Shown here piece by piece: positions 3,454-60,173 of a stretch of 64,000 bases of DNA. Position 1 is the first letter of the stretch; the number at the start of each line of letters is the position of its first letter. The stretch lies in the NCBI GenBank assembly GCA_015143295.1, contig CM026567.1, positions 9,690,416 to 9,754,415 on the forward strand, read 5' to 3'. The stretch comes from Tetracentron sinense (lineage: Eukaryota; Streptophyta; Magnoliopsida; Trochodendrales; Trochodendraceae). A program made the position numbers and the translations under genes. The notes beneath the pieces were generated by a model. That model was not told where the DNA came from and searched no databases. It saw only the letters and a program-made list of their open reading frames with translations.

Positions 3454-3573
3454 ATGTTGCCAGGTTCTGAGGGAGCTGCTGCTCCATTTGATGTTTGTGC
3501 TCCTAGCCCTTGGGTGGAGGAGGAGTACGTCGAGGAACCTTTGGAGGAACCTCCCGTAGAGGGTTATCAGTAG
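3454..3573 (+). CDS. Conserved LTR micro-ORF, family A copy 1
   Basis: Open frame of 39 codons plus stop in the 3' part of the solo LTR. The product is acidic, with the core SPWVEEEYVEEPLEEPPVEG and a C-terminal GYQ. It starts at the ATG that follows the conserved hairpin (stem GCTGAG/CTCAGC), about 300 bp before the LTR end. Function unknown: no domain is recognised. Ten copies in this window, from four LTR families, keep the frame and the PWVEEEY core. As part of a dead solo LTR this copy may not be expressed. The start could also be a non-AUG or an upstream exon. Confidence 0.55.
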   Translation: MLPGSEGAAAPFDVCAPSPWVEEEYVEEPLEEPPVEGYQ

Positions 3574-4983: not shown

Positions 4984-5337
4984 AATGTCCTTGTCGTGAA
5001 CTTGCAGGATCTCACTGTTCCTTTGTTGCTAATCCACTGGTTCTACCATTGTATCTAAACTGCTTTCTAATGCAGCTTGGATGGACACCTGTTCTGAGAC
5101 CGGTACTTCCGTAAGGACTGCATCTGTAGAGCCCCAGACTTTTTCATATTTAATGCATGACACTTTCGTTGCCATTTTGCCTTTAAAGAGGTATAATTAA
5201 TAAATAAGGAAGAAATTGGAAATTCTGAAACATCAGAAATGTTCGTTTTCGAAGTACGAACCCAACGCAAGTTGAATCATCAAAATCGGACAAACGAGTC
5301 AAAAGTTATGGCCAAAACAGTTTGGACCTGCAGACCA

Positions 5338-5501
5338 CCGATCGCTCGGTCCATGGAGCGATCGATCGGTCCAAAACCGATCGCTCGGAGGCTATCGACT
5401 GGTCAAGATTTTTGTATGGGAAAATTTTCTAGAGAGTGAAATTTTAACCGATCGCTCGGTTATGAAACCGATCGATCGGTCATTAACACCGATCGCTCGG
5501 T
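5338..5501 (+). repeat. Palindrome module in Tekay-1 5' LTR
   Basis: Same words and same spacer (ctatcgactggtcaag.. ) as at 1,797-1,981, with one palindrome fewer than in the 3' LTR copy at 17,843-18,026. The two LTRs of one element therefore differ in repeat number. Confidence 0.85.
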
Positions 5502-6535
5502 ACTTGCGTTTTTGCAGAAATTTCAGTAAGGGTATTATGGTCTTTTGGTCGGTTCACTCTTACCTTAAGAGTTTAACCCGAGCCTCTATGGGCTTCATTT
5601 CGACACTTAGAGAGATTGGGAGATAAGAAGAGAGGAGAGGGCGATTCCTAAACCTAGGGTTTCCATTTTGGAGAGAAATCAAGGGGTTTGTGAACCCACA
5701 CTCAACTTAAGCCCATTTTTCTTCAAGATCAAGGCACAAGCTCATGAGGAGCATCTCCTCAAGCTAGGGCAGCAACTCACGGTCGTTTTTGGAAGGGGAT
5801 TTCTTCCTCACTTGATCAAGGTCGGTACTTCTTGCTACCCTCCTAGTTATAGTTCCTCTTTTCCCTTAATTTTCTTTATTTTCCTTTATTTACACATGTG
5901 CTATGAGATGGATGGTTGTGAATGGTGAATGGAGATGGAATGGGCGATTGGATGCCAATGGTTGTGTTGTGATGATTAAAATGGGGAGGGCATTGTTCCA
6001 ATAATGAACATACATGCATGATTTGAGTAAAACCCATCTAGAAAAGCATGTTGTAGGGTAAATCAATAATGAACACACCATGTTTGATGAAATGCCAAGA
6101 TGAATGAAATGAATAATAAATAAAGAAATTGCATGCTTAAACATTCATGGAAATTGCTAGGGTTATGGTAGTGTGTTTTCGCGCTTTCCCTAAATTGTTT
6201 AATTTATTACTTGTATATATGGTGATGTGCAATGTATTGTGAATTCCCCAAAATGTCATATTAAATTTCCATTACAAGTGTGTACACGATTACACGAGCA
6301 CGGCATGAAACGACGTGATTTACCGATGTTTTCAACGACGAGATGTAGAGGTGGGGCATATCCTACGATATGTTTCACTTCACTTTTGTCAAGGACAAGA
6401 TGATCATGCATTGCATAGGGAAGGGTCTCCCATCCCATCGCATTACACGCATGGCATGGCATCGCATTACACGCATGGCATAGTATCGCATGACACGCAT
6501 AGCATAGTATTTCATGACACTCATGACATGACATG

Positions 6536-6802
6536 ACACGCATGGATGCTAGTTGCGACGGACTATGAACGGCAACTAGGCATACCCATCTGCATATAGG
6601 GTACTAGTTGCGACGGACTATGAACGAAAACTAGGCATATCATTCCGCATGGATGCTAGTTGCGACGGGCTATGAACGGCAACTAGGCACGTCATTCCGC
6701 ATATAAGGTACTGGTTGCGACGGACTATGAACAGCAACTAGGCATGTCATTCCGCACATAGGGTACTAGTTGCGACGGACTATGAACGACAGCTAGGCAT
6801 GT
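6536..6802 (+). repeat. Tandem array of five hairpin-forming units
   Basis: Five units of about 60 bp. Each has CTAGTTGC, then gacggactatgaacg, then GCAACTAG, so each can fold into an 8-bp stem. The matching array in the 3' LTR is at 19,060-19,325. The solo LTRs of the same group have the gaagggtctcccttccctc array here instead. Confidence 0.85.
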
Positions 6803-7029
6803 AAACATGTTTAAATTCCAAATAAGCAAGCATGATACACGCATGACATGGCACGCATGATACAAGCATGACAAGCATGACACGGTAAATAAGTTCCAAA
6901 TTATGCGAAGGGTATTTTAAGTCAAGTCAAGTGCATGGTGTTTTTCAAGGATTTTATCGGCTTTTCATGAACTGCAAGCATGATTATGAATTTCCTTATT
7001 TCTTTGTATGATATTAATTGTTCCTGATT

Positions 7030-7037
7030 CATATATA
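7030..7037 (+). promoter_or_regulatory. TATA-like stretch of the LTR promoter
   Basis: ATATATAT about 100 bp upstream of the micro-ORF and about 510 bp before the LTR end, where an LTR promoter is expected. If used, the transcript start would lie near 7,060 and the micro-ORF would be in the RNA leader. No start-site data. Confidence 0.35.
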
Positions 7038-7103
7038 TCTATATTGTTTCCTGGGTATGCATTGCTATCTCTTGCTATAACTGTTGGTTAGTATTTAGTA
7101 CCC

Positions 7104-7124
7104 GCTGAGTATTCCATGCTCAGC
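7104..7124 (+). promoter_or_regulatory. Conserved hairpin upstream of the micro-ORF
   Basis: Stem GCTGAG / CTCAGC with a 9-base loop TATTCCATG. The same stem, with nearly the same loop, precedes the micro-ORF in families A, C and E; family D keeps a degenerate form. The loop holds an ATG. Confidence 0.6.
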
Positions 7125-7134
7125 CGTACTTCTT

Positions 7135-7254
7135 ATGTCGGCAGGTTCTGAGGGAGCTGCTGCTCTATTTGATCTTTGTGCTCCTGGTCCATGGGTGGAG
7201 GAGGAGTACGTCGAGGAGCCTTTGGAGGAACCTCCCGTAGAGGGTTATCAGTAG
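7135..7254 (+). CDS. Conserved LTR micro-ORF, Tekay-1 5' LTR
   Basis: 39 codons plus stop. The N-terminus is MSAGSEGAAA, then the core GPWVEEEYVEEPLEEPPVEG, then YQ. It is acidic, with no signal peptide or membrane segment. This is the copy that would sit in the leader of genomic RNA, upstream of the primer site and of gag (ATG at 7,907). A shorter overlapping frame starts at the ATG in the hairpin loop (7,116) and closes inside it, in another frame. Role unknown: it could be a regulatory upstream ORF or a real small protein. Evidence is conservation of frame, length and core across diverged LTRs. Confidence 0.6.
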   Translation: MSAGSEGAAALFDLCAPGPWVEEEYVEEPLEEPPVEGYQ

Positions 7255-7549
7255 GTGGTGTTAGATTCTGAGTGGATTAGCTGTGGGTGAGCATGAGTGA
7301 TTATATCCATGTATTTTGGCGGGCATGTCCGCTTTCTTTGTTTTGATTTCTTTGTATTAAAACTTGGACCATGTGTATGTACTTAGAGGTTTGTTAGACT
7401 TCCGCTGTGTCTTATGGTTATGCTTCCGCTGTTATCCTCTATTGTATATGCTCTGTGGGTGTTTTGCAGGTGGTTTGTCAAGCAAGTCATGATTTAGTCA
7501 TCCACGATTCACTCTAACTCCTAGGGTGGGTTTTGGGTCGCGACAGAAG

Positions 7550-7561
7550 TGGTATCAGAGC
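7550..7561 (+). other. Primer binding site of Tekay-1
   Basis: TGGTATCAGAGC, complementary to the 3' end of initiator methionine tRNA, the usual primer for plant Gypsy and Copia elements, four bases after the LTR. Bases 7,562-7,906 are the untranslated leader, with no gene seen. Confidence 0.9.
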
Positions 7562-7906: not shown

Positions 7907-9056
7907 ATGAGACGGAACACACGGGGTCGTGGGCCACATACCAGAGCTTCCTCTTCTTCACGTGATGAGGATGAGCAGCCCGACCTCTCTCAGGTCTTAG
8001 GCTCTATTGCTGAGACACTCACCATCCTGGCGGCTCGGCAAACTATACCGGCATCAGCGACACCTTCTCCACCGCCTGGAGCTCCAGTACATCGTACAGC
8101 TGGAGTTGAGGCATTTCGGAGATTGAGGCCTCCATCCTTCCATGCGAGTGTGGACCCTCTTGCTGCGGAGGCTTGGATCCTCCAGGTTGAGAAGATATTT
8201 GCGGTGCTCTCTCCTACAGAGGAAGAGAAAGTAGCATGGGCAGTTTTCATGCTAGAAGGTGAAGCCCACCATTGGTGGTTGTCCGCATTGAGGACACGGG
8301 ACTTGACCATGCAAGGTCAACCGTGGACTTGGGAGGAGTTTAAGGATACGTTCTATAAGAAGTATTTCCCGGTTGGAGCTCGGGAAAAGATAGAGAGAGA
8401 ATTCATCAACCTTGAGCAAGGTTCGATGTCTGTGGCCGCTTATGAGGCTAAGTTCTCAGAGCTATCACGCTTCGCGACACATATGATTGCCACCGAGGCA
8501 ATGAAGGTGAGGAGGTTTGAGCAAGGACTCAAGGATGTCATCATGGAGAAAGTATCGGTCTTTAGGCACGCCACTTACGCTCAAGTGGTGGATAAAGCCT
8601 TGTTGGTTGAGACCAACTCTGAGGCGGTGTCCAAGAAGAGGGAATTGACGAGAGGCCAATCCAGTAGTTCAACACCTCTAGAGAGGCGGGCTCGTACCGG
8701 CCCTTATCAGTATACATGGCCAGCACCACAGATGAGGCCGACTTATGCGCCTCCAGCACCACGGCAGTACGTGCCACAGGCACCTCGACCTCAGGCTCTC
8801 CCGGCCCCACGGCCAGTTGCACCTCAGGTGGTGAGATACGCTCCACCTCAGGCCCCTCCTACCCGCACGCACGAGGTCTGCACTTCATGCGGCCGAAGGC
8901 ACCCGGCAGGGGATTGCCTAAGAGCATCAGGTGGATGTTTTCACTGTGGTCACCAGGGCCACGTGATCAGGGATTTCCCTACCCAAAATTTTCCAGGCCA
9001 ATCACAGGCTATTAGGCCCCCAGCATGCCCAGCAGGATCATATCAGGCGTCATCCC
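7907..9056 (+). CDS. Tekay-1 Gag (fossil)
   Basis: About 383 codons, open up to the nested solo LTR at 9,057. A basic N-terminus (MRRNTRGRGPHTRASSSS) is followed by a short helix (LSQVLGSIAETLTILAARQ), a proline-rich linker and the capsid-like gag domain from about residue 70 (RRLRPPSFHASVDPLAAEAW.. WTWEEFKDTFYKKYFPVGAR) to about 240. After a proline-rich stretch come cysteine/histidine clusters (CTSCGRRHPAGDC, CFHCGHQGHV) of the nucleocapsid type. This is the Tekay/Del form of Gag. The start is the first in-frame ATG after the leader and gives the conserved N-terminus also seen in Tekay-2 at 61,487. Confidence 0.9.
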
Positions 9057-9269
9057 TGTAGAGCCCCAAACTTTTTCATGCTTAATACATGACCCTTTCG
9101 TTGTCATTTTGCCTTTTTAAGAGGTATAATTAATAAATAAGGAAGAAATTGGAAATTTCAAAATGTCAGAAATGTTCCTTTTCGAAGTACGAACCCAACG
9201 CAAGTTGAATCGTCAAAATCGGACGAGCGAGTCAAAAGATATGGCCAAAACAGTCTGGACCTACAGGCA

Positions 9270-9650
9270 ATCGTAACTCGGAAGGCGCTAAGGACGTAGC
9301 TCGGTTATGCGCTAAGGACGTAGCTCGGTTATGCGCTGAGGACGTAGCTCGGAATGCGCTAAGGACGTGCTCAGACAATGTACTCCGATAACATATATGC
9401 TGTGCGTCCGTTGTACAGCTCACAATGAGTACGTTGTACAGCTCACAACGGGTACGTTGTACAGCACCACGGGCACGTTGTACATAAGACAACGTGACAA
9501 CGAGTTGGCACTATTCACAGCACAACGAGTTGGCACTATTCATAGCACAACGAGTTGTCACTATTCACAGCACAATGTGTTCAGCACTGTTCACAGCACA
9601 ACGTGTTCAGCACTGTTCACAGCACAACGTGTTCAGCACTATTCACGGTC
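9270..9650 (+). repeat. Subfamily-B LTR module: two short tandem arrays
   Basis: First about four units of gcgctaaggacgtagctcgg(ttat) (9,270-9,365), then a tract rich in gtacgttgtacagc words (9,370-9,490), then about six units near 25 bp of the form cacaacgagttggcactatt cacag. It occupies exactly the place held by the palindrome module in subfamily A, between the flanks aacagtctggacct and tttacagaaattccag. Confidence 0.85.
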
Positions 9651-11034
9651 CTTGCGTCTTTACAGAAATTCCAGTAAGGGTATTAAGGTCTTTTGGTCGG
9701 TTCACTCTTACCTTAAGAGTTTAACCCGAGCCTTTAGGGCATCATTCGACACTTAGAGAGATTGGGAGACAAGAAGAGAGGAGAGGGCGATTCCAAACCT
9801 AGGGTTTCTATTTTGGAGAGAAATCAAAGGGTTTTGAGACCCTAGATCACTTCCAGTCCGGTTTTTCTTCAAGATCTCGGCTCAAGCTCGTGCGAAGCTC
9901 GTGTTCTAAGCTAGGACAGCAACTCACAGTCGTGTGGAAGAGGGATTTCTTCCTCATCTCTTCAAGGTCGGTACTTCTTACTACCCTCCTAGTTATAGAT
10001 CCTCTTTTCCCCTCATTTCTCTATATTTTCTTTATCTTACACATGTGCTATGAGATGGATGGTTGTGAATGGTGAATGGAGATGGAATGGGCGACTGGAT
10101 GCCAATGGTTGTGTGTGATGAACAAATGGGGAAGGGCATTGTTCCAAATAATGAACATACGTGTATGATTTGAGTAAAACCCACCTAGAAAAGCATGTTG
10201 TAGGGTAAATCCATAATGAACACACCATGTTTGATGGAATGCCAAGGTGAATAAAGTGAGCTGTAAATTAGTAAATGCATGCCTAATAAATTCTGAACAT
10301 TGCTAGGGCCTATGATAGTGTGTTTCCTGCTTTCCCTAAATGATATGAATATTACATTGCTCAATCATTGATGCTATATGTGTTGTGAAATTACCCAAAT
10401 GTCATCTTTAAATTTAAATGCAAGTATGTACACGGTTCCCACGAGCACGGCATGCATGGCATGATTTATCGAGGTTTTTAAAGAACATGGTTAGAGGTGG
10501 GATATATCCTACGATATGTTTTACCTCGCTTTTCACAAGAAAACAAGAACCAACACTCCACGAGGGGTCTCCCCTCACTCACAAGTGCATATCATGAAGA
10601 AGGGCCTCCCTTCCCTCGCAAGTACATAAATATCATGAAGAAGGGTCTCCCTTCCCTCGCAAGTGCATTGCATAAAGAAGGGTTTTCCTTCCCTCTCAAG
10701 GCATCTCACAAGTGTATCTCACAAGTTACATGATCACAAGCAAGCATGCATGACATGACACGACATACAAGAATCAAGAAAGATAGACCAGACAAGCTTT
10801 CAAGTACGAAAAGATATTTCAAGTCAAGTCAAGTGCACGATGTTTTCAAGAGGATTTATCGGCTTTCCACGAAATGCAAGCATGATTATTAATTGCTTTA
10901 CTTCCTTGTATGATATAAATTGTTTCTGTCTAACATATATGAATTGCTCCTGCTTTATGTATGCTATCCGTATGCTATGACTGTTGGTTAGTGCTTAGTA
11001 CCCGCTGAGTATTCCATGCTCAGCCGTACTTCTT

Positions 11035-11154
11035 ATGTCGGCAGGTTCTGAGGAAGCTGCTGCTCCATTTGATGTTTGTGCTCCTGGTCCATGGGTGGAA
11101 GAGGAGTACATCGAGGAGCCTTTGGAGGAACCTCCCGTAGAGGGTTATCAGTAG
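11035..11154 (+). CDS. Conserved LTR micro-ORF, subfamily B copy
   Basis: 39 codons plus stop, same start context (hairpin, then ATGTCGGCAGGT) and same length as in Tekay-1, with the core GPWVEEEYIEEPLEEPPVEG. This LTR differs strongly from Tekay-1 in its front module and middle repeats but keeps this frame intact. Confidence 0.55.
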   Translation: MSAGSEEAAAPFDVCAPGPWVEEEYIEEPLEEPPVEGYQ

Positions 11155-11533
11155 GTGGTGTTAGATTCTGAGTGGATTAGCTGTGGGTGAGATGAGAGTT
11201 AGATTTATGTATTTTGGCGGGTATGTCCGCACTTTCTTATGGTCACCTTTTGTATAAACTTGGATTTGCGTATGTATATACATAGGGGTTTGGTAGACTT
11301 CCGCTGTGTTATGTTAGAGTATGTTTCTGCTGTTTATATCCTCTATTGTATATGCTTTGTGGGTTTTGCAGGTTAGTTGTCAAGAAAGTCATGATTAGTC
11401 GTCTAAAGTTCACTCTAACTCCTAGGGTGGGTTTTGGGTCGCGACAATCCCAGACTACCCGGTCTACACCTCAGTCTCGCCAGGCAAACCAGGGGCGAGT
11501 TTTTGCCTTAACAGAGGGTGATGCACTTGCAAG

Positions 11534-11691: not shown

Positions 11692-12049
11692 AGTCAATGA
11701 GTATTTGGCTCGAGTGTTGATTGATACCGGGTCTACTCATTCATTTGTCTCACCGAGTTTTTCAGAAGGCTTTTCTGTAGAGCCAAGTCAGCTAGAACCG
11801 GAGTTAGCCATTTCGACTCCTCTCGGCAAAACAGTATTGGCAGATAAAATGTATAGAAATAGTGTGGTCCAAGTTGGAAGCCACGAGTTGGCGGTTGATC
11901 TCATCGTCCTGGGATTCCAAGACTATGATGTTATATTGGGAATGGATTGGTTAGCGGCACATCATGGGCATGTAGCTTGCTTTGAGAAAATGGTACTCTT
12001 CGAGCCGGTAGAAGGAAAACCATTTCACTTTTGGGGGTTTAAAAAGTAG
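11692..12049 (+). CDS. Tekay-1 aspartic protease (fossil)
   Basis: Encodes the retropepsin domain, with the active-site motif [14 protein letters not shown] near the start and the second conserved block [13 protein letters not shown]. In the family this enzyme releases Gag, reverse transcriptase and integrase from the polyprotein. It sits between gag and the polymerase on the same strand, as in all Gypsy elements. Confidence 0.85.
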
Positions 12050-12071
12050 AGATATCGCTCGTTTTGCGGCA

Positions 12072-15008
12072 TTGAGCTTAGCGAACCTCGAGGCAAAGGA
12101 CTCTTCGACTATTCCGGTCGTGAGTGAATTCCTGGATGTATTTCCAGAGGTGTTGCTAGGAATACCTCCAGACAGGGAGATTGAGTTTGTGATCGAGCTT
12201 GCACTAGGCACAGTTCCCATCTTTCGGGATCCGTATAGAATGGCCCCGGTTGAACTTAAGGAGTTGAAGACCCAGTTGGAGGAATTGCAAGACCTTGGCT
12301 TCATTCGACCAAGTGTCTCACCGTGGGGTGCCCCGGTGTTGTTTGTTAAGAAGAAAGATGGCTCGATGCGGATGTGTGTCGATTACCGGCAATTGAACAA
12401 AGTCACTATAAAGAATAGGTATCCCTTGCCTAGAATTGATGATTTGTTCGATCAGTTGAAGGGAGCGAGATTTTTCTCAAAGATAGACCTTCGATCGGGT
12501 TATCACCAGTTGAAGATTAAGGTGGAAGATGTTCCCAAAACTGCTTTCAGGACTCGGTATGGACACTACGAGTTCTTGGTGATGCCTTTTGGACTCACAA
12601 ACGCGCCGGCAGCCTTTATGGATTTGATGAACCGGGTGTTCTGGCCATATCTTGATAGGTGCATGATTGTATTTGTTGATGACATTTTGGTCTATTCCCA
12701 GACACGGGAAGATCACACACGCGACCTACGCCTTGCTTTGGAAATGCTAAGAGAGCACAAGATATATGCCAAACTTAGCAAGTGTGAGTTTTGGCTCGAA
12801 GAGGTGGCATTTCTAGGCCATGTTGTTTCTGCGGAAGGCATATCGGTAGATCCAAAGAAGATAGAGGCTGTTATGAGTTGGGCAAGGCCCAAGAGTGTCA
12901 CAGAGATACGCAGTTTTCTTGGACTGGCAGGCTACTACAGGAGATTCGTAGAGGGTTTCTCCAGCCTTGTAGCACCGCTCACTTACCTGACAAGGAAGAA
13001 CGCCAAGTTTGTATGGAGTGATAAGTGCGAGATCAGTTTCATGGAACTGAAGAAGAGGCTTACTACAGCCCCTGTCCTTACTGTGCCATCTGGACCTTAT
13101 GGGTATGAGGTGTATAGTGATGCCTCACACGTTGGACTTGGGTGTGTACTCATGCAGGACAAGAAGGTCATTGCCTATGCATCAAGGCAATTGAAGGAGC
13201 ACGAGAAGAATTACCCCACGCAAGACTTAGAGCTTGCCGCAGTCGTGTTCGCACTTAAGATTTGGCGACATTATCTTTACGGGGTAGAATTCTATGTGTA
13301 TACGGATCACAAGAGCCTCAAGTACCTCTTTTCCCAAAAGGAATTGAATCTAAGGCAAAGGCGTTGGATGGAATTTTTGAAAGACTATGATTGTACCATT
13401 CAATACCACCCGGGTAAAGCGAATGTAGTGGCCGATGCTTTGAGTAGAAGACCTCTGGGGTTATTAGCACACATGTTGGTGCAGGAATGGAAGCTACTAG
13501 AAGATTTGGCCAATTTGGACATCAGTGTGAATGACTCTGTCCATGGTCCTACCTTGGCAAATGTTACGGTTCGGCCGTACATTATAGATTTGATCCAAGA
13601 ATATCAAGCCATGGATGCGGAATTGTTGGCTTTCCGGGACAAGGAAGTTGCCAAGGGTAGTGAAGACTTTTCTCTCACTAGCCGGGGTGCTATCACATTC
13701 AAGGGAAGGCTGTGTGTCCCAGCCAATGCAGATCTTCGAAGAGAGATTTTGGATGAAGAACACCGTTTGAAGTACACAGTGCATCCAGGGAGTACAAAGA
13801 TGTACCGAAACCTCAAGAGTCACTTTTGGTGGCGGAATATGAAGAGGGAGGTTGCGGAATATGTAGCACAGTGCTTAGTGTACCAACAGGTGAAAGCAGA
13901 ACACATGCGACCCGCCGGTTTATTGCATTCTCTTCCTATTCCCGAGTGGAAATGGGAGAACATATCCATGGATTTCATAGTTGGCTTGCCAAAAACGGCA
14001 AGGGGCTCAGATGCGATTTGGGTTGTAGTGGATCGTCTGACAAAGTCCGCACATTTCTTACCCTATCGAACTACTTTCAACTCTAGTCAGTTAGCCGCTT
14101 TGTACATCAAGGAAGTGGTGAGGTTGCATGGAGTGCCCGTCAGTATTGTGTCGGATCGGGATCCAAGATTCACGTCAAGATTTTGGAAAAGTTTCCAAGA
14201 GGCTATGGGTTCCCGACTTGATTTCAGCACCGCTTTTCATCCACAGACGGATGGACAAACCGAGAGAGTGAACCAAGTCATTGAAGACATGCTTCGGGCT
14301 TGTATGTTGGATTTCAGAGGCAGTTGGGAAGAGCACTTGCCTTTGGTTGAATTCGCCTATAATAACAGCTATCAGGCGAGTATCCAAATGGCACCATTTG
14401 AGGCCTTGTATGGGCGAAGTTGTAGGTCTCCTCTCTATTGGGATGAGGTAGGAGAAAGGAAAGTACTTGGTCCAGAGTTGATTGAGCAAACTGCAAACAC
14501 AGTTAAGATCATTCGGGATCGATTGAAAGCCGCTCAAGATCGCCAGAAAAGTTACGCTGACATGCGCCGTAGGGACTTGGGATTTCAAGTAGGGGATCAA
14601 GTTTTTGTGAAAGTATCTCCTAGCAAAGGGATCATGAGATTTGGCAAGCGAGGTAAGCTCAGTCCTCGGTATGTTGGGCCTTTTGAGATTATCACACGAG
14701 TTGGTGAGGTTGCTTACAGAGTAGCTCTCCCACCTCCCATGACCGCAGTTCACAACGTTTTCCATGTGTCTATGCTTCGGAAGTACATTGCGGATCCTTC
14801 GCATGTCATAGACTTGGAACCGTTGGAGATTCGAGAGGACCTCACCTTGATTGAAAAGCCGGTTCAGATTTTGGATCGAAGAGATCAAGTGCTTCGCAAC
14901 AAGACAATCCCTTTGGTTCTTGTGCAATGGCAACACCATGCTCAGGAAGAAGCTACAAGGGAGAGTGAAGCCGAAGTCAAAGCGAAGTACCTAGAATTAT
15001 TTGAATGA
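12072..15008 (+). CDS. Tekay-1 polymerase: reverse transcriptase, RNase H, integrase, chromodomain-like tail
   Basis: One open frame of 978 codons. Reverse transcriptase fills about residues 55-235, with [23 protein letters not shown] and the catalytic FVDD at 201-204. RNase H follows, about 335-460 ([32 protein letters not shown]). Integrase has an N-terminal zinc-binding region near 560-610 and the catalytic triad D634, D695 and E731 (spacing 60 and 35), then a C-terminal domain ([20 protein letters not shown]). The tail from about 930 ([18 protein letters not shown].. LELFE) is the chromodomain-like part that defines chromoviruses. The order RT-RH-INT is the Gypsy order. Fossil element: no claim of activity. 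Confidence 0.95.
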
Positions 15009-15109: not shown

Positions 15110-15440
15110 TGTAGAGCCCCGGGCTTTTTCATATTTAATGTGTCGCGACCCAAGACCCACCCTAGGAGTTAGAGTGAACTTTGGACAACTAATCATGGCT
15201 TACATGACTTGCTTGACAAACCAACCTGCAAAAACCCACAGAGCATATACGATAGAGGACATAAACAGCGGAAACATACTCTAACATAGCACAGCGGAAG
15301 TCTAAACAAACCTCTATGTATACACGAATCCAAGTTTATACAAAAAGTATCCAACAAAAAGTGCGGACAGACCCGCCAAAATACATGAATGTATAACTCT
15401 CATCTCGCCCACAGCTAATCCACTCAGAATCTAACACCAC

Positions 15441-15560
15441 CTATTGATAACCCTCTACAGGAGGTTCCTCCAAAGGCTCCTCGACGTACTCCTCTTCCAC
15501 CCATGGACCGGGAGCACAAACATCAAATGGAGCAACAGCTCCCTCAAAACCTGCCGACAT
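15441..15560 (-). CDS. Conserved LTR micro-ORF, reversed solo LTR
   Basis: 39 codons plus stop on the minus strand, MSAGFEGAVAPFDVCAPG then PWVEEEYVEEPLEEPPVEG and YQ. Several third positions differ from the other copies without changing the product (for example the codons for P, P and Q near the end). Confidence 0.55.
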   Translation of the reverse strand: MSAGFEGAVAPFDVCAPGPWVEEEYVEEPLEEPPVEGYQ

Positions 15561-16964
15561 AAGAAGTACGGCTGAGCATGGAATACTCAGCGGGTACCAA
15601 GTACTAACCAACAGTCATAGCATACAGATAGCAATACATAGAGCAAGAACAATTCATATATGTTAGACAGAAACAATTTATATCATACAAGGAAGTAAAG
15701 CAATTCATAATCATGCTTGTAATTCATAGAAAGCCGATAAATCCTCTTGAAAACATTGTGCACTTGACTTGACTTGAAATATCTTTTCGTACTTGAAAGC
15801 TTGTCTTGTCTATCTTGCTTGATTCTTGTATGTCGTGTCATGTCATGCATGTCATGCGTGCTTGCTTGTGATCATGTAACTTGTGAGATACACTTGTGAG
15901 ATATCCTTGTGAGATGCACTTGAGAGGGAAGGGAGACCCTTCTTTATGCAATGCACTTGCGAGGGAAGGGAGACCCTTCTTCGTGATATGTATGTACTTG
16001 TGAGGGAAGGGTGGCCCTTCTTCATGATATGCACTTGTGAGAGAGGGGAGACCCCTCGTGGAATGTTGGTTCTTGTTTTCTTGTGAAAAGCGAGGTAAAA
16101 CATATCGTAGGATATGTCCCACCTCTAATCATGTTCTTGAAAACCTCGATAAATCATGTCATGCATGCCGTGCTCGTGGGAATCGTGTACATACTTGCAT
16201 TTAAATTTAAATATGACATTTGTGTAATTACACAACACACATAACATCAATGATTTAATAATGTAATATTCAAATCAGTTAGGGAAAGCAAGAAACACAC
16301 TATCATGGTCCCTAGCAATATTCATAATTTATTGGGCATGCATTTCCGAATTTACAACTCACTTTATTCACTTTGGCATTTCATCAAACATGGTGTGTTC
16401 TTTATGGATTTACCCTACAACATGCTTTTCTAGGTGGGTTTTACTCAAATCATACATGTATGTTCATTATTTGGAACAATGCCCTTCCCCATTTATTCAT
16501 CACACACAACCATTGGCATCCAGTCGCCCATTCCATCTCCATTCACCATTCACAACCATCCATCTCATAGCACATTTGTAAATGAAAGAAAATCTGAAGA
16601 AAAGAAGGGAAAGGAGGATCTATAACTAGGAGGGTAGCAAGAAGTACCGACTTTGAAGAGATGAGGAAGAAATCTCTCTTCCAAACGACTGTGAGTCGCT
16701 GCCCTAGTTTGGAACACAAGCTTCGCACGAGCTTGAGCCGAGATCTTGAAGAAAAACCGGGCTGGGAGTGATCTAGGGTCTCAAAACCCTTTGATTTCTC
16801 TCCAAACTGGAAACCCTAGGTTTAGGAATCGCCTTCTCCTCTCTTCTTATCTCCCAATCTCTCTAAGTATCGAATGATGCCCTAAAGGTTCGGGTTAAAC
16901 TCTTAAGGTAAGAGTGAACCGACCAAAAGACCATAATACCCTTACTGAATTTCTGTAAAAACAC

Positions 16965-17440
16965 GAGTACCAAACTCGTTGTGCTGTGAACAGTGCCAAC
17001 TCGTTGTGCTGTGAACAGTGCCAACTCGTTGTGCTGTGAACAGTGCCAACTCGTTGTGCTGTGAACAGTGCCAACTCGTTGTACTGTGAACAGTGCCAAC
17101 TCGTTGTGCTGTGAATAGTACCAAACACGTTGTCCGTTGTGAAGGGTGCCTAACCCGTTGTCACGTTGTGTTGTGCATAGTGCTGAGCTCATTGTCCGTT
17201 GTCTTATGTACAACGTGCCCGTTGTGCTGTACAATGTACACGTTGTCTGCTGCACAACGCACCCGTTGTCTGTTGCACAACGAATGCACAACGTATACGT
17301 TATCAGAGTACGTTGTCTATGCGTTGTCTGCGCCTTCCGAGCTACATCCTTAGCGCCTAACCGAGCTACGTCCTTAGTGCCTAACCGAGCTACGTCTTTA
17401 GCGCATAACCGAGCTACGTCCTTAGCGCCTTCCGATCTGC
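16965..17440 (-). repeat. Subfamily-B LTR module in the reversed solo LTR
   Basis: About six 25-bp units of the gttgtgctgtgaacagtgcc form (16,965-17,110), then words built on cgttgt and gtacaacg (17,130-17,320), then four ctacgtccttagcgc units (17,330-17,430). It mirrors the module at 9,270-9,650. Confidence 0.8.
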
Positions 17441-17842
17441 GATTGCCTGCAGGTCCAGACTGTTTTGGCCATATCTTTTGACTCGTTCGTCCGATTTTGA
17501 CGATTCAACTTGCGTTGTGTTCGTATTTCGAAAAGAAACATTTCTGACATTTTGAAATTTCTAATTTCTTCCTTATTTATTAATTATACCTCTTAAAAAG
17601 GCAGAATGACAACGAAAGTGTCATGTATTAAGCATGAAAAAGTCTGGGGCTCTACATAATGCATGACACTTTCGTTGCCATTTTGCCTTTAAAGAGGTAT
17701 AATTAATAAATAAGGAAGAAATTAGAAATTCTGAAACATCAGAAATGTTCATTTTCAAAGTACGAACCCAACGTAAGTTGAATCGTCAAAATCGGACAAA
17801 CGAGTCAAAAGCTATGGCCAAAACAGTTTGGACCTGCAGACC

Positions 17843-18026
17843 ACCGATAGCTCGGTCCATGGAGCGATCGATCGGTCCAAAACTGATCGCTCGGAGGCTA
17901 TCGACTGGTCAAGATTTTTGTATGGGAAAATTTTCCAGAGAGTGAAATTTTAACCGATCGCTCGGTTATGAAACCGATCGATCGGTAGGCAACCAATCGA
18001 TCGGTCATTAACACCGATCGCTCGGT
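17843..18026 (+). repeat. Palindrome module in Tekay-1 3' LTR
   Basis: Same module as 1,797-1,981, with ACCGATCGATCGGT words on both sides of the spacer ctatcgactggtcaagattt. It has one more palindrome (gtaggcaaccaatcgatcgg) than the 5' LTR of the same element. Confidence 0.85.
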
Positions 18027-19059
18027 ACTCGCGTTTTTGCAGAAATTTCAGTAAGGGTATTATGGTCTTTTGGTCGGTTCACTCTTACCTTAAGAGTTTA
18101 ACCCGAGCCTTTAAGGCTTCATTTCGACACTTAGAGAGATTGGGAGATAAGAAGAGAGGAGAGGGCGATTCCTAAACCTAGGGTTTCCATTTTGGAGAGA
18201 AATCAAGGGGTTTGTGAACCCACACTCAACTCAAGCCCATTTTTCTTCAAGATCAAGGCACAAGCTCGTGAGGAGCATCTCCTCAAGCTAGGGCAGCAAC
18301 TCACGGTCGTTTTTGGAAGGGGATTTCTTCCTCACTTGATCAAGGTCGGTACTTCTTGCTACCCTCCTAGTTATAGTTCCTCTTTTCCCTTTATTTCTCT
18401 TTATTTTCCTTTATTTACACATGTGCTATGAGATGGATGGTTGTGAATGGTGAATGGAGATGGAATGGGCGATTGGATGCCAATGGTTGTGTTGTGATGA
18501 TTAAAATGGGGAGGGCATTGTTCCAATAATGAACATACATGCATGATTTGAGTAAAACCCATCTAGAAAAGCATGTTGTAGGGTAAATCAATAATGAACA
18601 CACCATGTTTGATGAAATGCCAAGATGAATGAAATGAATAATAAATAAAGAAATTGCATGCTTAAACATTCATGGAAATTGCTAGGGTTATGGTAGTGTG
18701 TTTTCGCGCTTTCCCTAAATTGTTTAATTTATTACTTGTATATATGGTGATGTGCAATGTATTGTGAATTCCCCAAAATGTCATATCAAATTTCCATTAC
18801 AAGTGTGTACACGATTACACGAGCACGGCATGAAACGACGTGATTTACCGATGTTTTCAAGGACGAGATGTAGAGGTGGGGCATATCCTACGATATGTTT
18901 CACTTCACTTTTGTCAAGGACAAGATGATCATGCATTGCATAGGGAAGGGTCTCCCATCCCATCGCATTACACGCATAGCATGGCATCGCATTACACGCA
19001 TGACATAGTATCGCATGACACGCATAGCATAGTATTTCATGACACTCATGGCATGACAC

Positions 19060-19325
19060 GACACGCATGGATGCTAGTTGCGATGGACTATGAACGGAAA
19101 CTAGGCATACCCATCTGCATATACGGTACTAGTTACGACGGACTATGAACGGCAATTAGGCATATCATTCCGTATGGATGCTAGTTGCGACGGGCTATGA
19201 ACGGCAACTAGGCACGTCATTCCGCATATGAGGTACTGGTTGCGACGGACTATGAACGGCAACTAGGCATGTCATTCCGCACATAGGGTACTAGTTGCGA
19301 CGGACTATGAACGGCAGCTAGGCAT
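19060..19325 (+). repeat. Tandem hairpin array in Tekay-1 3' LTR
   Basis: Five units of about 60 bp with CTAGTTGC .. GCAACTAG stems, the partner of the array at 6,536-6,802. Confidence 0.85.
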
Positions 19326-19672
19326 GTGAACATGTTTAAATTCCGAATAAGCAAGCATGATACACACATGACACGCATAGCATGACATGGCACGCATGAT
19401 ACAAGCATGACAAGCATGACACGGTAAATAAGTTCCAAATTACGCGAAGGGTATTTTAGTCAAGTCAAGTGCATGGTGTTTTTCAAGGATTTTATCGGCT
19501 TTTCATGAACTGCAAGCATGATTATGAATTTCCTTATTTCTTTGTATGATATTAACTGTTCCTGATTCATATATATCTATATTGTTTCCTGGGTATGCAT
19601 TGCTATCTCTTGCTATAACTGTTGGTTAGTATTTAGTACCCGCTGAGTATTCCATGCTCAGCCGTACTTCTT

Positions 19673-19792
19673 ATGTCGGCAGGTTCTGAGGGAGCTGCTG
19701 CTCCATTTGATGTTTGTGCTCCTGGTCCATGGGTGGAGGAGGAGTACGTCGAGGAGCCTTTGGAGGAACCTCCCGTAGAGGGTTATCAGTAG
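19673..19792 (+). CDS. Conserved LTR micro-ORF, Tekay-1 3' LTR
   Basis: 39 codons plus stop, MSAGSEGAAAPFDVCAPG then PWVEEEYVEEPLEEPPVEG and YQ. It differs from the 5' LTR copy at two codons in the middle (PFDV here). Confidence 0.55.
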   Translation: MSAGSEGAAAPFDVCAPGPWVEEEYVEEPLEEPPVEGYQ

Positions 19793-20379
19793 GTGGTGTT
19801 AGATTCTGAGTGGATTAGCTGTGGGTGAGCATGAGTGATCCATGTATTTTGGCGGGCATGTCCGCTTTCTTTGTTTTGATTTCTTTGTATTAAAACTTGG
19901 ACCATGTGTATATACTTAGAGGTTTGTTAGACTTCCGCTGTGTCTTATAGTTATTCTTCCGCTGTTATCCTCTATTGTATATGCTCTGTGGGTGTTTTGC
20001 AGGTGGTTTGTCAAGCAAGTCATGATTTAGTCGTCCACGATTTACTCTAACTCCTAGGGTGGGTTTTGGGTCGCGACAGCATCTGCTACTTTTGTGAGAA
20101 TTGCAGTCATAAAGCGAGTCATGGGTCAGCTCATGCAACTGAAAATAATGCAATAGGTTAATCACGATTGTAGAGCCCCGGACCTTTTTACAGTTAATGA
20201 ATGACAGTCTCGTTGTCATTTTGCCCTTAAAGAGGTATAATCAATAAATAAGGAAGAAATTAGAAATTTCTGAAACGTCAGGAATGTTCCTTTTCGAATT
20301 ACGAGCACAACGCAAGTTGAATCGTCAAAATCGGACGAACGAGTCAAAAGATATGGCCAAAACAGTCTGGACTTGTAGG

Positions 20380-20900
20380 AAATCGTAGCTCGGTTAGGCG
20401 CTAAGGATGTAGCTTGGAAGGCGCTAAGGACGTAGCTCGGAAGGCGCTAAGGACGTAGCTCTAGCTCTGATAACGTATACGTTGTGTATCCGTTGTGCAA
20501 CAGACAACGGTACGTTGTACAGCTCACAACGGGTACGTTGTACAGCACAACGGGCACGTTGTACATAAGACAACGGACTACGGGCTCAGCACTATGCACG
20601 ACTCAACGTGACAATGGGTTCGGCACCCTTCACAATGGACAACGAGTTGGTACTATTCACAGTACAACGAGTTGGCACTATTCACAGCACAACGAGTTGG
20701 TACTATTCACAGTACAACGAGTTGACACTATTCACAGCACAACGAGTTGGTACTATTCACAGTACAACGAGTTGGCACTATTCACAGCACAACGAGTTGG
20801 CACTATTCACAGCACAACGAGTTGGTACTATTCACAGTACAACGAGTTGGCACTATTCACAGCACAACGAGTGGGCACTATTCACAGCACAACGTGTTCA
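20380..20900 (+). repeat. Subfamily-B module with a ten-unit 25-bp array
   Basis: Three to four gctaaggacgtagctcgg units (20,395-20,465), then gtacgttgtacagc words, then ten tandem units of 25 bp (caacgagttggcactattca + cagca) from 20,641 to 20,890. Alternate units carry t/c changes (ggtacta/ggcacta, cagta/cagca), which suggests growth by a two-unit or larger step. Confidence 0.88.
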
Positions 20901-22333
20901 ACACTCATGTTTTTACAGAAATTCCAGTAAGGGTATTATGGTCCTTGGTCGGTTGCTCGTACCTTAAGAGTCCTACCCGAGCCTTTAGGGCATCATTCGA
21001 CACTTAGAGAGTTTGAGAGAATAGAAGAAAGGGGAGAAGCCGATCCTAAACCTAGGGTTTCCAGTTTGGAGAGAAATCAAAGGGTTTTGAGACCCTAGAT
21101 CACTCCCAGTCCGGTTTTCTTCAAGATCTCGGCCCAAGCTCGTGCGAAGCTCGTGTTCCAAGCTAGGACAGCAACTCACAGTCGTTTGGAAGAGGGATTT
21201 CTTCCTCATCTCTTCAAGGTCAGTACTTCTTGCTACCCTCCTAGTTATAGTTCCTCTTTTCCCTTCTTTTCTCTTTATTTTCCCTTATTTACACATGTGC
21301 TATGAGATGGATGTGAATGGTGAATGGAGATGGAATGGGCGATTGGATGCCAATGGTTGTGTGGTGCTGATGAAAATGGGGAGGGCCTTGTTCCAATAAT
21401 GAACGTACATGTATGATTTGAGTAAACCCATCTAGAAAAGCATGTTGTAGGGTAAATCCATAATGAACACACCATGTTTGATGAAATGCCAAAGTGAATA
21501 AAGTGAGTTGTAAATTAGTAAATGCATGCCTAATAAATTCTGAATATTGCTAGGGCCCATGATAGTGTGTTTCCTGCTTTCCCTAAATGATATGAATATT
21601 ACATTGCTCAATCATTGATGCTATATGTGTTGTGAAATTACCCAAATGTCATATTTAAATTTAAATGTAAGTATGTACACGGTTTCCACGAGCACGGCAT
21701 GCATGACATGATTTATCGAGGTTTCCAAGAACATGGTTAGAGGTGGGACATATCCTACGATATGTTTTGCCTCTTTTTTCACAAGAAGACAAGAACCAAC
21801 ATTCCACGAGGGGTCTCCTCTCACTCACAAGTGTATATCATGAAGAAGGGCCTCCCTTCCCTCGCAAGTACATACATATCATGAAGAAGGGTCTCCCTTC
21901 CCTCTCAAGTACATACATATCATGAAGAAGGGTCTCCCTTCCCTCGCAAGTGCATTGCATAAAGAAGGGTCTCCCTTCCCTCTCAAGGCATCTCTCAAGG
22001 CATCTCACAAGTGTATCTCACAAGTTACATGATCACAAGCAAGCATGCATGACATGACACGACATACAAGAATCAAGCAAGATAGACAAGACAAGCTTTC
22101 AAGTACGAAAAGATATTTCAAGTCAAGTCAAGTGTACGATGTTTTCAAGAGGATTTATCAGCTTTCTACGAAATGCAAGCATGATTATGAATTGCTTTAC
22201 TTCCTTGTATGATATAAATTATTTCTGTCTAACATATATGAATTGCTCCTGCCTTATGTATGCTATCCGTATGCTATGACTGTTGGTTAGTGCTTAGTAC
22301 CCGCTGAGTATTCCATGCTCAGCCGTACTTCTT

Positions 22334-22453
22334 ATGTCGGCAGGTTCTGAGGGAGCTGCTGCTCCATTTGATGTTTGTGCTCCTGGTCCATGGGTGGAGG
22401 AGGAGTACGTCGAGGAACCTTTGGAGGAACCTCCAGTTGAGGGATACCATTAG
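22334..22453 (+). CDS. Conserved LTR micro-ORF, subfamily B copy at 22.3 kb
   Basis: 39 codons plus stop, MSAGSEGAAAPFDVCAPG then PWVEEEYVEEPLEEPPVEG and YH. Against the Tekay-1 5' LTR copy I count eight differing codons, five of them silent. Confidence 0.55.
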   Translation: MSAGSEGAAAPFDVCAPGPWVEEEYVEEPLEEPPVEGYH

Positions 22454-22736
22454 GTGGTTGTAGGTTCTGAGTGGATTAGCCGTGGGTGAGATAAGAGATA
22501 TACATTTATGTATTTTGGCGGGTCTGTCCGCACTTCTTTTTGTATAAACTTGGATTCGTATATACATAGAGGTTTGTTTAGACTTCCGCTGTGCTATGTT
22601 AGAGTATGTTTCCGCTGTTTATATCCTCTATTGTATATGCTCTGTGGGTTTTGCAGGTTGGTTGTCAAGCAAGTCATGATTAGTCGTCCAAAGTTCACTC
22701 TAACTCCTAGGGTGAGTTTTGGGTCGCGACAACGAT

Positions 22737-39669: not shown

Positions 39670-39789
39670 CTAATAGTGGTGCATAGAAGGCTCCGGGTCG
39701 AAGTGCTCTTCCTCTACCCAAGGCTCCGTACCACATAAGTCGAATGGAACCCGAGCACCTGCTGATGATAAAAAATATCGGCTGAGCAT
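39670..39789 (-). CDS. Conserved LTR micro-ORF, family E (Tekay-2)
   Basis: 39 codons plus stop, starting at the ATG in the hairpin loop (MLSRYFLSSAG), then VPFDLCGTEPWVEEEHF and a different tail ending HHY. It shares PFD(V/L)C and PWVEEE with family A although the surrounding LTRs are hard to align. Here the hairpin ATG is in frame with the core, unlike in family A. Confidence 0.55.
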   Translation of the reverse strand: MLSRYFLSSAGARVPFDLCGTEPWVEEEHFDPEPSMHHY

Positions 39790-41533: not shown

Positions 41534-41641
41534 ATGCTCAATCGTACTTTTATGTTAGCAGGTTCCGTGGATGTCCTCGACCCGGAGTTTTGGGTCGAGG
41601 AAGAGTACGTAGAGGAGAGGGAGCCACCTATCCCGTTGTAG
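41534..41641 (+). CDS. Conserved LTR micro-ORF, family D
   Basis: 35 codons plus stop from the ATG at the hairpin site (MLNRTFMLAGSVD), then the core LDPEFWVEEEYVEEREPPIP. A second in-frame ATG at 41,552 matches the family A start. Product closest to family C, but ends earlier. Confidence 0.5.
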   Translation: MLNRTFMLAGSVDVLDPEFWVEEEYVEEREPPIPL

Positions 41642-46760: not shown

Positions 46761-47895
46761 CTTGCATAACATCATCAGATGCCTGTGCGTCTCTATCAGT
46801 CATGGCAAATACCTTGCCTTGATTAGCCTGACGAAGCTACTGGGTGGGTGGCAAGGATCTGGATACCTGAGATGAAGACCCCTGAAGTGAAGTCTGCCTG
46901 CCTGGAGGTCGGACTCCGTGTGGCCCAGTCTGTGATTGCTTGCGTGGGCAGTCTCGTATCACGTGGCCAACCTCACCACAGTGGAAGCATCCACCTGAAA
47001 ATCTTCGGTAATCTCCAGTCTTGTGCCGATGGCCACATACGTCGCACTCCTCAAAAGCCTGTGATGTGGAGGAAGCCAGAGGCGTAACCCTCGTAGCCTG
47101 TGATGTCGTAGGACGTGGTGCCTGAGGTGCAAAAGAAGGCTTCTAAATCGACATCGGCTGAGAGAATTGATATGGTGCAGTCTTGGTCCTCTTCTCGGAC
47201 TATGAAGAACCACTAGATTGACCCCGCGACATGCTCCTCTCGAAGCCACTATCTCTTCTCCTCATAAACTCTTCCGCATTCTTCTCGGCGATCTTCGCCT
47301 TTCCCACTATCTCCCTCAATGATTCTACTTAGAGGATGGACACCCTATCTCGGATGAACGCCTTCAAACCCATCTCAAACTTTCTAACCTATAGGTCTTC
47401 AGTCGCAACCAAATGCGGAGCAAATCTAGACAACTCGGTGAACTTAGCCTCATACTCAGCCACGTTCATCGTTCCCTATTCTAGAAACATAAAATCCCTT
47501 GCCTTCTGTTCTCGAATGAATTCGGAAAAATATTGATTATGGAAGGTTTCTAGAAACTCCGCCCATGTCCAGGGTTCCCCTGCTTTCGCAACATCTCTTT
47601 GCCTTTGGGCAGCTCCCCACTAATGTTCGGCTTCACCTTCCATCACAAAGGAAGCCCATTCAACTCGTTATTCCTCAGTACATCGGAGAGCCCGAAAGGT
47701 CTTCTCCAGCTGCATAATCAAGGCCTTTGCCACCATTGGGTCCAGAGTACCATAGAAAGTAGGAGGCCATAGTCTCCGGAAGGCTTCAAGTCCCGCGGTG
47801 TGATGCACCGGCGGAGGCACAGGAGTAGTCGGTGGGGTAGGAGTAGGTCTGGCTGCCAACAAAGCCAAAGTCTCAGCTATAGAATCCATAGCGAT
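46761..47895 (-). CDS. Tekay-2 Gag, main part (fossil, broken)
   Basis: From the SIRE insertion leftward: MDSIAETLALLAARPT and the proline-rich linker (47,889-47,800), the gag domain start (GLEAFRRLWPPTFYGTLDPM), later capsid pieces, and a CCHC knuckle (CFHCGEVGHVIRDC) near 46,930-46,990. The N-terminus is on the other side of the SIRE element at 61,401-61,487. Pseudogenised. Confidence 0.8.
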
Positions 47896-49116
47896 TGAAA
47901 TTTATCCAGATCAATGATCTCTAAGACCTACAGGGGGGGTGAATAGGTCTATCTAATAATTTCTAACCAATTTTAATTTTTCAATTAATATGTTTAGAAA
48001 TCAATGAACAATTCACTCAGACAATCCACACAAATCAAACACAGAAGATTTTTACGTGGAAAACCCTAACGGAAAAAAACCATGGGACCTCGTCCAGCAA
48101 CAAACTTCACTATGAAAAGATTTCAAGTACAAGACAAGACCTTACCAAAAATGAAACGACGTTCCTAGGTATAGACTCTTACTCTTGATTTCCACGAACC
48201 AGCAGGTTCGATCTCCGCGGTAGCAGCTTCGGTTCCACACCGACCAAATCTTCTCAAGCTACTTCAAAACCACGATCACACACGATCGATCTCCTTCCAC
48301 GAAGGCTCCGGATCAAACTCCGGACACACTCACAAGGTGTAGGATTGTGAATCAATTTAGGAAGTTTCAAACCCTAGAGGGATCTCATATAGATCTGAAA
48401 TCACACAATGCAAGTCAAAGGTTTAGATCTATACTTGCATTCTCTAGGATCAAAGAAAGAGGAGGGATCAACAAAGATCTAAAAGAACAAGAGGAAAAAC
48501 CCTAGAAGAGTTTCTCAGACTTCTACTCTTTCAAAAAATAAACAAAGATACGAATTAGGTCTTCAAAAAGTTGTTTATATAGGGTTTAAAAAAAGAACCT
48601 AGAAAAATAAAAATTCTTTTTACGGGGACCGTTCGAGCGGTGCACATTACCGATCGCTCGGTCCAAAACGGATCGCTCGATGCTCATAACCGATCGATCG
48701 GTTAAAAATCACCTCTCTGGAAAAATACCCCATACAAATTTTTTGTCCAGTCGATAGCCACCGATCGCTCGGTAGGCCATCGATCGATCGGTTTCAACAC
48801 CGAGCGATCGGTTGAGACAAAATTTTTTCCAAACCATTTTTCTTTTCATGTTTATTTGATTCAACTAAGATCAAACAACTTTGTTAGGTTTAAAACTATC
48901 CTACTAGGTATGTTTAGAGTTATCTAAGTCAAATCCAACCTAGGTAGGGGTCTCTAAGTCCATTACCTTTCTAGATCCAGAGTAGGAGCTTTTTCTTCAC
49001 TTTCTTCAATCTTCTTGATGCTTTAGCTCTTCTCTTCTGACAAGTTGAATACGACTCGACTCACATGACCTATCTAATGATCACGGAATTTGTCAACACC
49101 TACTTAGGGATTTACA
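47896..49116 (-). repeat. SIRE 3' LTR
   Basis: 1,221 bp, on its own strand TGTAAATCCCTAAGTAGG to ..GATAAATTTCA. Holds a palindrome module at 48,629-48,815 and pyrimidine-rich runs. Confidence 0.93.
48629..48815 (-). repeat. Palindrome module in a Copia LTR
   Basis: ACCGATCGATCGGT, ACCGAGCGATCGGT and related words around a spacer that reads, on the element's strand, ggctatcgactggacaaa .. tttgtatggggtatttttcc then agagag. Nearly the same as the Gypsy LTR module at 1,797-1,981. Confidence 0.85.
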
Positions 49117-56881: not shown

Positions 56882-57040
56882 TCAACAGTAGTCGAGGTAC
56901 GGCCACACGTCAAGGTCTCGGTCCGCCTGAGACTGCAGTGGGATAGACGGCTCTCTCTCCTCGATATACTCTTCCTCGACCCAAGGCTCTGGGTCAAGGG
57001 CTCCCTCAGTACCTGCCGACATGAAAGTACGGCTGAGCAT
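56882..57040 (-). CDS. Conserved LTR micro-ORF, family C copy 1
   Basis: 52 codons plus stop from the ATG in the hairpin loop (MLSRTFMSAGTEG), then LDPEPWVEEEYIEEREPSIP and a longer tail ending VWPYLDYC. The second in-frame ATG (57,022) matches the family A start. Against the family C copy at 62,590-62,748 ten codons of the 46 after the second ATG differ, eight silently. Confidence 0.6.
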   Translation of the reverse strand: MLSRTFMSAGTEGALDPEPWVEEEYIEEREPSIPLQSQADRDLDVWPYLDYC

Positions 57041-58795: not shown

Positions 58796-59007
58796 GTAGG
58801 TTTGGACTGTTTTGACCATATCTTTTGACTCGCTCGTCGGATTTCGACGATTCAACTTGCGTTGGGTTCATCTTTCAAAAATACACATTTCTGACATTTC
58901 AGAATTTCCGATTTCTCTCTTATTTATTAATTACACTATGAGGAAAGCCAATTAGCTACGAAAACGGTATTCATTAAGTATAGAAAAGTCCGGGGTGCTA
59001 CATCTAT

Positions 59008-60112: not shown

Positions 60113-60160
60113 GGATAATACAGGATCACACTTAAGGGATTAGCCTTATTAGTGAACTAA

Positions 60161-60172: not shown

Positions 60173-60173
60173 T

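Follow-up and report, generated by a model that had tools for sequence, protein, structure and literature searches.

Many plant genomes contain elements of the Tekay/Del group in abundance, and classification, dating and masking all take their LTRs to be non-coding. Coding sequence beyond gag-pol has been described in plant Ty3/gypsy elements in the form of additional ORFs (aORFs), which are placed between the LTRs, on either the 5' or the 3' side of gag-pol, and which include a 5' aORF of approximately 400 amino acids in the Tekay elements of sunflower (PMC7264820; PMC11728184). Among the papers surveyed, the nearest LTR-encoded gene is MMTV sag, which has been called LTR-encoded and under selection (PMC11998498). 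Among plant chromoviruses, the gag-pol frame of Bingo of Beta vulgaris runs into the 3' LTR (PMC3605345), and the LTRs of grass Del elements possess a conserved 3' CpG island that is given as a feature of base composition (PMC4029996).

In this report we describe a short conserved frame inside the LTRs of a chromovirus group, as seen in a 64-kb window (the whole stretch of DNA that was analysed) and, beyond it, in the 1.16 Gb genome of the host plant. Like the aORFs, it appears to be conserved coding sequence additional to gag-pol, carried by a Tekay-like chromovirus, is kept in most copies and has no known domain. Unlike the internally located aORFs, it measures only 36-50 codons and lies wholly in the LTR (ORF 7135-7254 within LTR 5151-7546), such that each full-length element carries it twice. 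With MMTV sag it shares the placement of a protein gene in an LTR and a frame that is, on sequence evidence in our case, under selection; sag, by contrast, belongs to an animal retrovirus and encodes a superantigen that is a type II membrane protein, and no similarity is claimed. Bingo likewise has coding sequence in the LTR of a plant chromovirus, but there it is the tail of a polyprotein, whereas the LTR ORF is a separate frame about 300-420 bp from the LTR end. The grass Del island resembles it in being conserved, rich in GC and close to the 3' end of a Del LTR, but is described as base composition, with no mention of an ORF, hairpin or palindrome in the text of that paper (PMC4029996). The available portions of PMC3605345, PMC6317226, PMC4029996 and PMC11656987 contain no such LTR ORF, and a search of the open-access literature returned no report of a conserved ORF inside plant LTRs. 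The reading that we somewhat favor is that a genuine small gene of roughly 36-50 codons resides in the LTRs of a large Tekay/Del-like chromovirus group; it would be translated, and its product would serve an accessory role by binding a partner.

The element that carries the ORF at 7135-7254 is bounded by two family A LTRs (Table 1) and encodes gag and RT-RNase H-integrase in Ty3/gypsy order, as judged from Pfam matches. Its primer binding site is presumably of the initiator tRNA-Met type. The C-terminus of pol matches Pfam Chromo at E=0.017, which is under the cut-off of that model, and we take the sequence to resemble a Tekay-type chromodomain; we read the carrier as a probable member of the Tekay/Del-like chromovirus group. 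Three further family A LTRs have no evident partner and are solo-like; two of these are nested in the same element, and one of the three is inverted. The window also holds a repeat pair (97.4% identical) around copia-type gag/pol frames, which probably bounds a Ty1/copia element, and a frame with Transposase_32 (PF20167), a domain known from an Athila ORF (PMC11728184).

Table 1. Coordinates of the LTR ORFs, the carrier element and its neighbours within the window.
Feature	Positions	Strand	Remarks
LTR ORF, family A	3454..3573	+	
5' LTR of family A element	5151..7546	+	extent from alignment to partner LTR, 96.5% identical
Short repeated units in that LTR, 5' of ORF	6600..6800		GGTACTAGTTGCGACGGACTATGAACG...
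Hairpin 1, just 5' of ORF	7104..7124	+	GCTGAGTAT..ATGCTCAGC, lower stem AGTAC/GTACT
LTR ORF, family A	7135..7254	+	39 aa, MSAGSEG...PWVEEEYVEE...EGYQ; coding signal
Hairpin 2, 3' of ORF	7318..7333	+	GGCGG GCATGT CCGCT
LTR end block	7505..7546		TAACTCCTAGGG..TTTTGGGTC; common to diverged families
Primer binding site	7550..7561	+	TGGTATCAGAGC
gag frame from ATG 7907	7907..9061	+	interrupted downstream by solo-like LTR
Family A LTR, solo-like	9057..11447		
LTR ORF, family A	11035..11154	+	
pol frame	12012..15008	+	RT, RNase H, integrase, chromodomain-like C-terminus
Family A LTR, solo-like	15141..17656		
LTR ORF, family A	15441..15560	-	
3' LTR of family A element	17657..20079	+	carries its own ORF copy
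LTR ORF, family A	19673..19792	+	within 3' LTR 17657-20079
Family A LTR, solo-like	20169..22732		
LTR ORF, family A	22334..22453	+	
LTR ORF, family B	39670..39789	-	shortened (see text)
LTR ORF, family C	41534..41641	+	shortened (see text)
Repeat pair, first member	47888..49116		
Frame with Transposase_32	49923..51056	-	
copia-type gag/pol frame	52534..55380	-	
LTR ORF, family D	56882..57040	-	52 aa counted from hairpin ATG
copia-type gag/pol frame	58952..60139	-	
Repeat pair, second member	60166..61395		
LTR ORF, family D	62590..62748	-	52 aa counted from hairpin ATG

All ten of the frames that a previous sequence-only reading had located in LTRs of this window were found at its positions, six of them in family A, one in B, one in C and two in D. 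The conserved hairpin that it placed just 5' of the ORF accompanies each of the ten, although that of the C copy (41534) has largely decayed. Its claim that the frame is open in every copy holds for a stretch of 35-52 codons, but the B (39670) and C copies are shortened by a premature in-frame TAG relative to their relatives, and the former frame is still traceable past the TAG (DDDPLDRHHDFDFC in B, SQEDRDVDVWPYLDYC in C). Conservation of a protein-like frame across diverged LTR families is likewise upheld; the number of four families was too low, with at least eight peptide families and thousands of copies now apparent.

These families, A to H, were grouped by eye, without a tree, and a second sample of LTRs adds further variants. 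Their peptides read PFDVCAPGPWVEEEYVEEP...EGYQ in A, PFDLCGTEPWVEEEYFDPEPSMDHY...DFDFC in B, DPEPWVEEEY..EEREP...DVWPYLDYC in C and D, PFDIAPEPWVEEEYYEPEPTMDH...DRWPYLDYC in E, PWIEAGRGEQE in F, PWIEEDYGKEEPYE...WPHGGDY in G and SNPEPWVEEEYEEERDPP...WAHLDYY in H. A Gly codon (GGT) serves as the anchor of the frame and usually follows a conserved inverted repeat (hairpin 1) by 16-19 bases; the peptide that the frame specifies is small and acidic, with a near-invariant W core in an acidic setting and C-termini that are kept at family level. AlphaFold2 gave no confident fold for the D form (pLDDT 66.6 and pTM 0.18, from an alignment of ten sequences), and no Pfam domain matched at E<=1. No homologue was recovered from the protein collection, plasmids, GTDB genome contigs or viral contigs, collections that are mainly viral and prokaryotic and say little about other plants; a pattern search of the viral contigs gave one contig match. 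On the same two grounds, namely no Pfam match at E<=1 and nothing in the protein collection, no homology to a known accessory protein was found. An accessory protein that binds a partner is our best inference as to what such a peptide would be.

Two DNA patterns were used to sample the frame beyond the window. For the hairpin pattern CTGAGTATTN{2,6}GCTCAGCCG the genome yields 17,184 exact matches, and for its reversed control none; the LTR-end pattern has 10,864, again with none for the control. Both anchored samples were drawn from one contig (C1), and the conservation comparison covers one genome. The first comprises 80 copies picked by an 18-base hairpin DNA pattern, representing the first 83 of 100 listed places minus three that were skipped, two of which are intact family D matches in the protein search. 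A core ([PQLH]W[VIM][EK]) that is in frame and not preceded by a stop occurs in 76 of the 80; the four misses are L090, L102, L119 and L125, the last being an otherwise open frame with W replaced by L. Counted from the anchor Gly, at least 26 codons are open in frame 0 in 73/80 copies, as against 43/80 in frame 1 and 15/80 in frame 2. The second sample consists of 20 of 100 places listed for the LTR-end pattern, the first whose LTR is absent from the hairpin sample, and leans toward decayed hairpins since LTRs already sampled were passed over. The core is recognisable in 18 of these 20. Fourteen were found by a regular expression that tolerates stops, two of which (L183 and L189) have a stop ahead of the core, and four by eye (L171, W to stop; L173, W to L; L179, core present with the frame shifted ahead of it; L181, V to E). 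Of the two failures, L170 is too decayed and L172 shows nothing. Almost every LTR sampled has the frame, and the group numbers thousands of copies. Searches by protein scored the best 150 of 22,009 first-look candidates for B and the best 150 of 28,539 for D; being biased to intact frames, they were kept out of the evidence on openness.

The pattern of substitution within the frame carries most of the argument. Ten lineage pairs were picked by hand from the 80 copies, and four (L077-L097, L089-L099, L110-L128 and L086-L127) were dropped for gaps or shared lineage. In the six gapless pairs that remain, differences at the first, second and third codon positions number 33, 28 and 73 (chi-square p=1.2e-6), and none of 20,000 random placements reached 73 third-position differences of 134; with all ten pairs, gapped ones included, the counts are 76/67/144. 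NG86 dN/dS over the six pairs is 0.24 in frame (0.13-0.45 per pair); the two other sense frames give 1.14 and 1.35, and the antisense frames 1.40, 0.44 and 1.74. The antisense frame with the value of 0.44 has the same third positions as the sense frame and contains 16 stop codons; among the six frames, the sense frame alone is free of stops in these pairs. The 100 bases 3' of the frame show no periodicity (47/46/52, p=0.81), a control that, for the pairs L088-L070 and L126-L140, which were cut to 37 and 27 codons respectively, starts a few codons before the stop of the longer partner. Within families, 37 A-type copies gave a dN/dS of 0.25 over 666 non-independent pairs, a value conditioned on the frame by the way the copies were picked (by translation, with a stop at codon 37). 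Seventeen copies of family E, also picked by translation, gave 0.30 when all pairs were counted; the value for eight disjoint nearest pairs was 0.43, with a weaker third-position excess (38/22/43). The E copies come from a search in which the best 40 of 2575 candidates were scored; of the 21 rows that follow the query, 20 were fetched.

Because of the third-position substitutions and the retention of the core in 76/80 and 18/20 sampled copies, the frame is more than a product of chance. The comparisons between lineages demonstrate, as far as sequence can, purifying selection on its amino acids, which extends along the whole frame and includes the C-terminus, and we have little doubt that the frame is coding. 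Two outcomes that the sequence-only reading had named as telling against it, a frame closed in most copies elsewhere in the genome and a dN/dS near 1, were both checked for; both DNA-anchored samples keep the frame, and the in-frame ratio of the six pairs is the opposite of the latter. The abundance of near-identical copies (113 of the 150 listed family D matches are identical to the 52-aa query, in a search biased to intact frames) might suggest that nothing but the recent common origin of young copies keeps the frame, which would then have no present function. We give this explanation very little credence, as it appears contradicted by the dN/dS between lineages: those compared differ at 15-43% of bases inside the frame yet keep the codon pattern, and samples anchored on DNA keep the frame as well.

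A further explanation would place the constraint on the DNA or RNA itself, as a promoter, packaging or structure signal, with the open frame as a by-product. The hairpins on either side of the ORF lend themselves to this. The inner stem of hairpin 1 is strongly conserved at base level, and 53 other distinct hairpin 1 stretches show mostly single-base decay. The stems of hairpin 2 vary across families (GGTGG/CCACC, GGCGG/CCGC, GAGCGA/TCGCTC and AAGTGG/CCACTT), and TATTTTG lies 5' of it in most copies seen. In 15 hand-cut hairpin 2 stems, 80% of cells are paired and two-sided changes occur in four of six pairs; the two-sided cells number nine, against a shuffled mean of 3.9 (matched in 1 of 500 shuffles) and 0-4 in slid versions, while further pair types show no excess (seven against 6.7 shuffled). 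This scoring excluded families B and F, which have other loops, and related sequences can exceed shuffles even where there is no structure. At gathering thresholds, Rfam models matched nothing in the window. For the two hairpins, constraint on nucleic acid may well stand. As an account of the ORF it is very improbable and to our reading largely refuted, given the third-position excess, a low dN/dS in one frame only and a flank devoid of periodicity. Conservation of hairpin 2 also argues that the stretch is transcribed, which would be compatible with the ORF residing either in the leader or in U3.

How translation of the frame would begin is a more difficult matter. AGG at the anchor was found in 75 of the 80 hairpin-anchored copies and is absent in five; three of the 75 look mis-picked, and in the other 72 the anchor Gly follows the end of hairpin 1 by 16, 17, 18 or 19 bases. 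All of these spacings occur, covering every residue modulo 3, so the distance from hairpin to Gly ignores the frame; the distance from Gly to core keeps one phase. An ATG three codons ahead of Gly, reading MSAG, is present in 69/80 copies and missing from the B/E clade. The hairpin has an ATG of its own, in frame in B, C and D and out of frame in A, which has the MSAG ATG instead. In family B, for which a protein search supplied 28 copies, the hairpin codon is ATG in 12, ACG in 11, ACA in four and ACT in one. In family E, the stretch from the nearest upstream stop to Gly lacks an in-frame ATG in 19 of 24 copies; the other five have one at scattered places (L153 and L156 at -14, L160 at -22, L158 and L097 at -23). 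Family E keeps the codon pattern although most of its copies lack an in-frame AUG, and the seven codons ahead of Gly differ by 142/122/300 over all pairs of E copies (dN/dS 0.41, from few independent changes).

These observations raise the prospect that the ORF is a U3 gene whose expression relies on the 3' LTR and on splicing, with the ORF as the terminal exon of a subgenomic RNA, in the manner of retroviral accessory genes; the constant (G)CAG/GT just 5' of the frame (slash, junction) would be the acceptor, and the AUG would reside in an upstream exon. The AGG that stands at this place in 75/80 copies in a single phase to the frame, with an upstream spacing that is indifferent to it, is what such an exon boundary would produce, and the 19 of 24 E copies without an in-frame AUG would obtain one from elsewhere. 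A strong donor-like site, TGGCAG/GTACGTAT (GTATGTAT in one), is present in U5 of the four D leaders examined, and family D has a TATA-like site downstream of the ORF in 24 of the 30 copies. Against this, the junction from the U5 donor of family D to the ORF has no exact match in the 1.16 Gb genome and one with a single mismatch, inspection of A and D leaders revealed no AUG exon in the right phase, the MSAG AUG of 69/80 copies would be removed by splicing, and the E codons 5' of Gly show third-position excess, as if coding began upstream. Moreover, four of the 20 fetched E copies (L154, L159, L161 and L162, apparently of different subgroups) share the same G-to-T change of GGT to TGT at the anchor Gly, whereby AT replaces AG while the frames stay open; the shared change is either recurrent or an old polymorphism. 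With AG so lost and no exact junction found, the constant phase of CAG/GT was downgraded as proof of an exon boundary. We regard expression as a spliced U3 exon as unlikely, if still worthy of serious attention.

Acceptor-like sequences (TTCTCAG, TTCTTAG or GATCTCAG), preceded by a T-rich stretch, also lie roughly 10 bases ahead of the gag ATG in A (about 7880-7910), B and D, and a leader intron for gag is possible.

The location of the transcription start bears on the same question. A rough scan with a TATA matrix placed sites downstream of the ORF in D, as above, and upstream of it in A (6/14 copies in each of two adjacent bins, which possibly overlap); in B no bin reached 30% of copies. The matrix thus detected no core-promoter site common to the families, and the scan was weighed for neither the leader nor the U3 model. 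In the family A element, 18 ATGs lie in the interval from the ORF to gag, so simple scanning of the leader fits badly. We slightly favor a place for the ORF in the 5' leader rather than in U3 of the 3' LTR. The suggestion of the sequence-only reading that, with a start at the upstream TATA region, it would be the first substantial ORF of the RNA leader may hold, TATA-like sites being upstream in part of family A.

An ORF in the leader could be a regulatory uORF that tunes gag through its translation, or through stalling, on the gag-pol RNA; its peptide would matter via the ribosome alone. It sits before gag in the 5' LTR, its AUG contexts are weak by the plant consensus, conserved hairpins stand on both sides, and the amino-acid constraint expected of a conserved-peptide uORF was found. 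In peptide-sensing uORFs the constraint is usually at the stop-proximal end, whereas here it spans the frame, with C-termini conserved at family level, and the in-frame AUG is absent from most E copies. The pararetrovirus shunt leader, in which a short ORF ends just ahead of a stable stem, differs as well, since the stable hairpin 1 precedes the LTR ORF and hairpin 2 begins about 64 bases past its stop in the A copy at 7135. A purely regulatory uORF becomes less likely because the whole frame is constrained and because E keeps the frame though 19/24 copies have no in-frame AUG, and we judge it improbable. Of the two roles suggested by the sequence-only reading, a regulatory uORF or a small acidic protein, the amino-acid constraint that either might entail is borne out, and a merely regulatory uORF is disfavored by constraint reaching the C-terminus and by the mostly AUG-less state of E.

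Returning to the small accessory gene, we propose that the transcript of the element itself would be the template for translation of the ORF. Initiation would occur in most families at the AUG of MSAG, three codons ahead of Gly and in weak context, and in the B/E clade, which lacks this AUG, at some codon other than AUG close to the hairpin. The resulting peptide would be small, acidic and unstructured, and would act as an accessory protein by binding a partner of the host or of the element. More tentatively, with confidence just short of even, we envisage an ancient LTR accessory microprotein gene, present twice per element and selected through at least eight families, in one AUG-less clade of which translation may start at a non-AUG codon near the hairpin or draw on a spliced exon.

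A selected frame in the LTR would add one protein to the life cycle of the element, and would bias the dating of LTR pairs under neutrality only slightly. If our reading is true, it would constitute a plant counterpart of the LTR-encoded genes of animal retroviruses, and a coding function of plant LTRs would have been overlooked by current annotation.
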